Assembly (NCBI GenBank): GCA_028868975.1 | Contig: JAGWTM010000005.1 | Coordinates: forward strand, 1-49,579 | From: Actinomycetales bacterium | GTDB taxonomy: Bacteria > Actinomycetota > Actinomycetes > Actinomycetales > Microbacteriaceae | Direction: 5' to 3' | DNA: 49,579 nt | Shown: positions 15,787-49,567 of the stretch, in pieces | Position numbering within the stretch: position 1 is the first letter of the stretch | How the letters are laid out: each line of letters begins with the position of its first letter | Notes under the pieces: model-generated | What the model saw: only the letters and a program-made list of their open reading frames with translations | What the model was told of the DNA's origin: nothing | Databases searched by the model: none | Position numbers and translations under genes: made by a program

Positions 15787-15793
15787 CGCATAC

Positions 15794-15803
15794 AGGCTAC
15801 CTT
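15794..15803. promoter_or_regulatory. Overlapping divergent -10 elements, DUF3515/thiL
   Basis: In AGGCTACCTT the minus strand reads TAGCCT, 7 nt before the DUF3515 ATG, and the plus strand reads TACCTT, 7 nt before the thiL GTG. The two hexamers share the central TA. Both mRNAs would begin at the start codon, and polymerase can occupy only one direction at a time. Confidence 0.65.
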
Positions 15804-15810
15804 TGACTCT

Positions 15811-16799: not shown

Positions 16800-17747
16800 T
16801 TAGGCGTGCAACTGGCTGTTTAGAACGATCCCGGCGCCGACGCGTGGCAGAACCTCGACGGCCCCGGTTGCGGAGTTGCGGCGGAACAGCAGGTTTGGAA
16901 CACCGCTGAGCTCCACGGCCTTGACTGTGCGCGCCTCGCCACCATCGACGATGTTCACCTTGGTACCTGCCGTTACATAAAGACCGGCCTCAACCACCGA
17001 ATCATCACCGATTGAAATTCCAACGCCCGAGTTAGCGCCTAGAAGCGCACGTGCGCCGATAACAACCTTTTCTTTGCCGCCACCCGAAAGCGTGCCCATG
17101 ATTGACGCGCCGCCACCGATGTCAGCTCCGTCATTCACGATGACTCCCTGCGAGATGCGCCCCTCAACCATCGAGGACCCCAGCGTTCCAGCATTGAAGT
17201 TCACAAAGCCCTCGTGCATGATCGTCGTTCCCGGGGCCAGGTGTGCTCCAAGACGGACGCGGTTGGCGTCAGCGATTCGAACCTTGCGCGGGGTCACGTA
17301 GTCAACCAAACGCGGAAACTTATCGATGGAGTGCACGATGACGCCCTGACGCTGCAAGGCTGACCGGTTTCGCTCGAGCTCATCCAATCCGATAGCACCG
17401 ATGTTGGTGAATGCCACAATCGGAAGGTTCGGAATTAGCCCCTCGAGATTGATGCTGTTTGGGCGAACCAGAAGGTGCGACAGCAGATGCAGGCGAAGGT
17501 ATGCGTCTGCGGTGGAGACCACAGGCAGTTGAAGGTCGATTTCGGTGCGAACCATTTGGACGGTGACATTGCGTCTCGGGTCTGGACCGACCTGAGCATC
17601 GAGTTCGCGTGGAACGAGCCACTGCGAATCATCCTTCGGCGCCGAGCCCAGCTGCGGGTTCGGGTAATAGACATCGAGTACGGTGCCATCGTTGGATACG
17701 GTCGCGAGGCCGTGGGCCCAGGCGGTGGTCATGGTTGCTTCAGTCAC
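16800..17747 (-). CDS. dapD: Tetrahydrodipicolinate N-succinyltransferase
   Basis: Adds succinyl from succinyl-CoA to tetrahydrodipicolinate in the lysine/meso-diaminopimelate route. 315 residues of the actinobacterial DapD type: N-terminal substrate region, then a left-handed beta-helix of hexapeptide repeats ([37 protein letters not shown]). The GTG at 17747 is 7 nt after TAACCT, a leaderless-type start; an internal ATG (MTTAWAHG) five codons on is a less likely alternative. It is divergent from dapE, the next enzyme but one in the same pathway, with only 30 nt between them. It converges on thiL with 8 nt between stops. Confidence 0.96.
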
Positions 17748-17754
17748 GAGAACA

Positions 17755-17771
17755 AGGTTAACAGTTAGCCT
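17755..17771. promoter_or_regulatory. Back-to-back divergent -10 elements, dapD/dapE
   Basis: Within the 30-nt gap, TAACCT on the minus strand (17760-17755) lies 7 nt from the dapD GTG, and TAGCCT on the plus strand (17766-17771) lies 6 nt from the dapE GTG. The two are 5 nt apart and lie inside an inverted repeat AACAAGG...CCTTGTT. Neither gene has an SD. Any shared regulator would have to bind over the start codons. Confidence 0.7.
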
Positions 17772-17777
17772 TGTTGT

Positions 17778-18857
17778 GTGTCTGGCTCAGTTCTAAATCT
17801 CACCGGTGACGTCGTTGAACTCACCGAGGCAATCTGCAACATCGAATCGGTTTCGGGTAACGAGCAGGCGCTCGCCGATGCCATCGAGGCGGCGCTGAGC
17901 GCATACCCTCACCTCGAGGTGCTGCGTGACGGTGACGCGATTGTCGCGCGCACAAACCTGGGGCGGGCTAGTCGAGTTGTGATCGCCGGCCACATTGATA
18001 CCGTGCCGGTCGCTGAAAACTTGCCGGTCGAGCGCCGGGTCGTCAACGGGCAGGATGTGCTCTGGGGTCGAGGAACGGTTGACATGAAAGCCGGCGTTGC
18101 CGTGCAGCTGAAGTTGGCCGCCGAGTTGTCATCACCGAATGTCGACCTGACCTGGATTTTCTACGATCACGAGGAGGTCGAGGCTTCGCTCAATGGCCTT
18201 GGCCGAATTTCGCGCAATCGTCCAGAGCTGCTGGCCTCAGATTTCGCGGTGCTCTGTGAGCCGACGGCGGCTTTAGTCGAGGGCGGTTGCAACGGCACCA
18301 TGCGCGTTGACGTAACCCTGCGCGGTGTCAAGGCGCACAGCGCTCGAGCATGGATGGGCAAGAACGCGATTCACGCGGCCGCTGAGGTGCTTGAGGCTCT
18401 GAATGTTTATGAGACCCAGTCGGTTGAGGTCGATGGTCTCACCTATCGCGAAAGCCTCAATGCGGTTCTGATTCGCGGTGGAATCGCCACCAATGTGATT
18501 CCCGACGAATGCGTGATCACAGTGAACTACCGTTTTGCGCCCAGCAAGTCGGGGGCCGACGCCGAAGCCCACCTGCGCGAGGTTTTCGCCGGCCACGAAC
18601 TGGTCGTGGTTGATGTTGCCGAGGGCGCTCGACCTGGTCTGGATCGCCCCGAAGCTCAGGCCTTCCTTGCTGCTAGCGGAGTCGAGGCTCGTCCGAAATA
18701 TGGCTGGACCGATGTGGCCCGTTTTAGTGCGCTCGGCATTCCGGCCGTGAACTACGGACCCGGCGACCCTAACAAGGCCCACGCCGATGATGAAAACTGC
18801 CCGATCGAGCAGATTTACGCTTGCGAAAATGGTCTTCGCGCGTGGTTGACCGCCTAG
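17778..18857 (+). CDS. dapE: Succinyl-diaminopimelate desuccinylase
   Basis: Zinc M20-family hydrolase removing succinate to give LL-diaminopimelate. 359 residues: metal-binding [10 protein letters not shown] and [15 protein letters not shown], catalytic Glu in DHEEVEA, a dimerisation domain around residues 175-290, and [15 protein letters not shown] with the last metal His. GTG start with no SD, 6 nt after TAGCCT. The next gene begins inside its last codons, so the two are probably co-transcribed. Confidence 0.96.
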
Positions 18858-49539: not shown

Positions 49540-49567
49540 AAAACCCAGTCAGCTCCGACTGGGTTTT
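49540..49567 (+). terminator. Terminator after tRNA-fMet
   Basis: AAAACCCAGTC and GACTGGGTTTT form an 11-bp perfect stem around AGCTCC, ending in TTTT. It lies 6 nt after the encoded CCA. Confidence 0.92.

Follow-up and report, generated by a model that had tools for sequence, protein, structure and literature searches.

The window, meaning the whole stretch of 49,579 nucleotides analysed here, carries dapD and dapE as a divergent pair, both belonging to the succinylase branch of DAP/lysine synthesis. The identity of each gene is supported by a curated NCBIfam model: TIGR03535 for dapD (461 bits, cut-off 441.5) and TIGR01900 for dapE (513.7 bits, cut-off 304.2). The gap between them occupies positions 17748-17777 and, by a base-by-base check, is 30 nt long with the sequence GAGAACAAGGTTAACAGTTAGCCTTGTTGT. 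The start codon of dapD lies at the same position in many congeners, where it is often ATG, and an earlier start for dapE is excluded by an in-frame TAG at 17766-17768. The genes and features of the locus are the following:

16800-17747, minus strand: dapD, 2,3,4,5-tetrahydropyridine-2,6-dicarboxylate N-succinyltransferase, GTG start at 17747
17747, minus strand: predicted leaderless start of dapD transcription, coinciding with the first base of its GTG (from the -10 spacing and the absence of a Shine-Dalgarno sequence)
17751-17775, no strand assigned: 25-bp palindrome AACAAGGTTAAC-A-GTTAGCCTTGTT, in which 11 of the 12 pairs flanking a central A match, its centre midway between the two boxes
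17755-17760, minus strand: dapD -10 element TAACCT (AGGTTA on the plus strand), its first T 13 nt upstream of the GTG
17766-17771, plus strand: dapE -10 element TAGCCT, its first T 12 nt upstream of the GTG
17778, plus strand: predicted leaderless start of dapE transcription, coinciding with the first base of its GTG (on the same two grounds)
17778-18857, plus strand: dapE, succinyl-diaminopimelate desuccinylase, GTG start at 17778

The 30-nt gap, the outward-facing TAACCT and TAGCCT with 5 nt between them, and the AACAAGG/CCTTGTT repeat of a preliminary description of this DNA were all found where that description had placed them.

The two boxes have the position expected of leaderless promoters. 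TAACCT is followed by a spacer of 7 nt before the GTG of dapD and TAGCCT by one of 6 nt before the GTG of dapE, and the hexamers AGGTTA and TAGCCT are separated by the 5 nt ACAGT (17761-17765). Estimated from the density of TAnnnT in the window, the chance of this motif occurring at a spacer of 6-7 nt before both starts is approximately 3e-5; the paired boxes are far beyond chance. Within the window, no Shine-Dalgarno-like sequence lies just upstream of dapD or dapE, and neither gene has a convincing -35 element. Passages on leaderless genes in three papers on actinobacteria describe a TAnnnT motif approximately 12 nt before ATG or GTG and no Shine-Dalgarno sequence (PMC3160421, PMC3898074, PMC3890552). 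The same combination, namely TAnnnT at -13 and -12, GTG starts and no Shine-Dalgarno sequence, is found for dapD and dapE, and both genes very probably start transcription inside the 30-nt gap.

A complete congener, G063, shows the same signal at the level of the genome. Among the first genes of its divergent pairs, as taken from 1270 genes called by a home-made codon scorer whose start choices are approximate, TAnnnT peaks at -12 (65 of 362) and at -13 (29 of 362) over a background of approximately 5 per position. The boxes in the window coincide with these peaks, that of dapE with the main one at -12 and that of dapD with the second at -13. Shine-Dalgarno-like tetramers precede only 4 of the 94 G063 genes in the two peaks versus 98 of the remaining 268, and a -35 signal is absent from the genus logo and from 199 genes with such a -10 box.

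The promoter pair is widely distributed. Both boxes occur at a spacer of 6-8 nt in all 57 genus loci, a set made up of the window and 56 relatives, and in 99 of a separate set of 104 other actinobacterial dapD/dapE loci, versus 0-1 loci at each of seven control spacings. The choice of start codon adds little freedom to this result, as the median number of candidates per gene is 1-2. The gap measures 27-31 nt in 56 of the genus loci and 38 nt in one. The dapE box reads TAGGCT in 48 of the 57, its usual form being followed by CGT, and the window has TAGCCT. No Shine-Dalgarno-like tetramer precedes dapE in 56 of the 57 genus loci or dapD in 52 of them. Thus the dapD/dapE feature is real as sequence and, as a predicted pair of leaderless promoters, is conserved in the genus and beyond, which supports the earlier proposal that both genes fire from the 30-nt gap. 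One of the collected loci, L205, lies on a contig deposited under the name Stenotrophomonas maltophilia P13 and is Microbacterium-like; this contig is probably contaminated or mislabelled.

The favoured interpretation, to which a probability of roughly 0.75 is assigned, is that the gap holds two back-to-back leaderless promoters at which the binding of polymerase is mutually exclusive. More specifically, these would be two distinct promoters for the housekeeping sigma factor, each pared down to its TAnnnT -10 element and each starting at the first base of a start codon, such that both mRNAs would be leaderless and the gap would be essentially all promoter, presumably with no dedicated regulator. 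The sigma holoenzyme covers DNA from roughly -55 to +20. With only 31 bp between the predicted starts, the footprints of polymerases at the two promoters would overlap almost wholly, and each binding event should yield a single transcript. A polymerase engaged at either promoter would cover the -10 element of its neighbour, giving dapD or dapE mRNA per event and never both, and the intrinsic strengths of the two boxes would determine the dapD:dapE ratio. The suggestion that a single binding event could set both fluxes runs counter to this geometry, as the footprints overlap and a polymerase in place for either gene should keep the opposite one from being transcribed. At the bidirectional promoters of Escherichia coli, closely opposed polymerases are sterically exclusive, basal activity is too low for competition, and a strongly activated side could repress the opposite one (PMC12825309). 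By analogy, and with the caveat that the E. coli rules apply to overlapping -10 elements and to starts separated by no more than 25 bp while the distance here is 31 bp, dapD and dapE would probably fire independently at low occupancy and limit each other at high occupancy, with interference arising only if one side is strong.

The palindrome is the feature on which the earlier idea of shared control was founded. Its arms are AACAAGG (17751-17757) and CCTTGTT (17769-17775). The window has three sites at which a palindrome of at least 11 of 12 pairs with a loop of 0-5 is present, the remaining two being terminator-like, and first-order Markov controls gave 0-2 per 49.6 kb; the palindrome per se is unusual mainly by its location. 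An RNA hairpin or terminator was ruled out for the gap, as the palindrome lies outside the transcripts if both genes are leaderless. Elsewhere in the window, strong inverted repeats flanked by runs of A and T at 1186-1213 (GAAAACCCCCGC...GCGGGGGTTTTC) and 49540-49567 (AAAACCCAGTC...GACTGGGTTTT) are probably intrinsic terminators. If a dimeric regulator, perhaps responsive to lysine or DAP, bound 17751-17775 and repressed or activated dapD and dapE jointly, the 11/12 symmetry centred exactly between the boxes would be explained, and joint control has a precedent in Mycobacterium tuberculosis, where deletion of crp mildly raises both genes (log2 0.67 and 0.62; PMC7938724). Against this, the symmetry about the box-to-box centre falls from 11/12 in the window to 3-8/12 in the 56 congeners, so that the importance earlier attached to it is not borne out. 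Of the two observations that the preliminary description had set against its own proposal, loss of the repeat in relatives and independent expression of the two genes, comparison across relatives thus provides the first. The distance between the boxes also varies within the genus (3-6 nt, once 14), while the spacing of each box to its own start holds steady at 6-8 nt, and no second copy with up to 3 mismatches is found in the source genome (approximately 91% complete), hence none before other targets. The gap has no good match to Crp-, DtxR- or LexA-like motifs. DtxR boxes share the half-site AGGTTA, but their halves lie 3 nt apart versus 5 here. Compared with the G063 locus (L007; common core GGTTAACAGTTAG), two substitutions in or beside the dapE box (G to C and C to T) make CCTTG match CAAGG, and additional differences at the outer ends extend the match over the full arms; the palindrome would have arisen by a few substitutions beside two boxes that were already opposed. 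Counting against this account, symmetry of 11/12 is improbable under a simple model, appearing in 0 of 200,000 draws of random flanks between typical genus boxes, though the model mostly drew genus boxes instead of the window's own pair and ignored the number of places examined. Because the palindrome is not conserved, is present in single copy and spans a variable box spacing, it is probably no operator; judged from the sequences compared, its extension is most likely a coincidence. A joint operator is therefore very improbable, although the palindrome might conceivably be a young, species-specific operator or the site of a one-site regulator.

Two other explanations concern the promoters themselves. 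The same two leaderless promoters may simply have been pushed together by genome streamlining, their closeness being of no regulatory effect. This account agrees with back-to-back exclusive promoters on the anatomy and differs on the consequence, and it is a serious possibility that nonetheless falls short of being probable. It accords with the behaviour of the gap outside the genus, whose length ranges between 17 nt and hundreds of nt with no displacement of either box, and with the low basal activity of the E. coli promoters. Compact forms are also found, however, in genomes of normal size, with gaps of 17 nt in G074 (3.1 Mb), Cryobacterium and Leifsonia aquatica, and the layout is stable within clades, although neither counterpoint proves function. 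A single -10 element serving both directions, as in E. coli, and bound by polymerase in two orientations, is most improbable for the window: its hexamers do not overlap and are 5 nt apart, and the predicted starts, at 31 bp, are beyond the 7-25 bp by which bidirectional promoters are defined (PMC10268837). Such sharing finds its support in the dapD/dapE loci of Cryobacterium, Leifsonia aquatica and G074, which do have a shared TAnnnTA.

The back-to-back arrangement with separate boxes is one of several forms of the dapD/dapE gap, each typical of its clade. The gap is approximately 30 nt in this genus. Five Cryobacterium, Leifsonia aquatica and G074 (L068, L167, L198, L199, L202, L210 and L212) have a gap of 17 nt and one shared TAnnnTA, and three Agrococcus (L215, L221 and L231) have a gap of 23 nt in which the boxes share a TA; elsewhere the boxes are separate and the gap is longer. 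Across 67 genomes of the genus, the TA-sharing layout CAY-N6-ANNNTANNNT-N6-RTG (22-nt gap) was counted 220 times and its reversed control 44 times, and the layout with a fully shared box (17-nt gap) gave 128 matches versus 58 for its control; these are raw pattern counts and not gene-by-gene assignments, and congeners are not independent. The excess of the TA-sharing layout suggests a genus-wide class of leaderless bidirectional promoters. The exact 30-nt layout was rejected as such a genome-wide class, most of its matches in the genus being dapD/dapE itself. The site CACRTTGTTANNNTANNNNNATG occurs in 39 of the 67 genomes, and in G063 it lies between menC and menB, which diverge from a 17-nt gap in which a single TAGTCTA would serve both leaderless genes:

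L099, 16425-16447 (G063:C1:156425-156447); also G000:C52:7945-7967: menC/menB site

The window has a second compact divergent gap of 24 nt at 15787-15810 (CGCATACAGGCTACCTTTGACTCT), between a minus-strand ORF for a small lipoprotein-like product and thiL, in which two TAnnnT boxes share a TA (AGGCTACCTT).

A broader and rather doubtful proposal is that leaderless bidirectional promoters are a general device of streamlined Microbacteriaceae, in which the entire gap separating two divergent genes of a pathway would form one polymerase-sized site, making the enzymes compete for each polymerase and tying together their ratio and noise. The dapD/dapE loci would then form a lineage series, from separate promoters through back-to-back (31 bp between predicted starts) and TA-sharing (24 bp, Agrococcus) to a fully shared -10 element (18 bp, Cryobacterium), with menC/menB fully merged.

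These layouts are revealing of the minimal size of a divergent intergenic region, which is 30 nt here and shrinks to 17 nt in other pairs, leaving out a leader, a ribosome site and a separate -35 element. They also offer a conserved natural series in which to ask whether competition between polymerases at opposed promoters is selected within one essential pathway. For dapD/dapE, the reading as a single symmetric switch is not supported and gives way to a simpler, testable layout.

The locus resembles known systems in part. As in the leaderless (TA-led) genes of actinobacteria, TAnnnT lies approximately 12 nt upstream with no Shine-Dalgarno sequence and no clear -35 element; unlike the cases in the leaderless-gene passages of the papers concerned (PMC3160421, PMC3898074, PMC3890552), two such promoters here stand back to back in an otherwise empty gap, a layout that those passages do not discuss. 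A search for literature combining leaderless with bidirectional or divergent promoters, with most subscription papers outside its range, likewise returned nothing on the back-to-back arrangement. Mycobacterium tuberculosis has the same divergent gene pair, dapD (Rv1201c) and dapE (Rv1202), which are reported to change together in the crp deletion; control there is attributed to Crp (PMC7938724), whereas no Crp-like site was found in the gap of the window. The bidirectional promoters described by Warman, Grainger and colleagues, in classes of 18, 10 and 23 bp, similarly have divergent starts too close for opposing polymerases to bind together, and often lie between functionally linked genes, as do those of dapD and dapE (PMC12825309). 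In contrast to that class, with its starts 7-25 bp apart and reciprocal overlap of the -10 elements, the boxes in the window are 5 nt apart, the starts are predicted to be 31 bp apart and both mRNAs are predicted to be leaderless. Among dapD/dapE gaps, those of Cryobacterium (17 nt) and Agrococcus (23 nt) fall in or adjoin the Warman and Grainger classes, and reciprocal overlap of the -10 elements is found in the dapD/dapE loci of Cryobacterium and G074.
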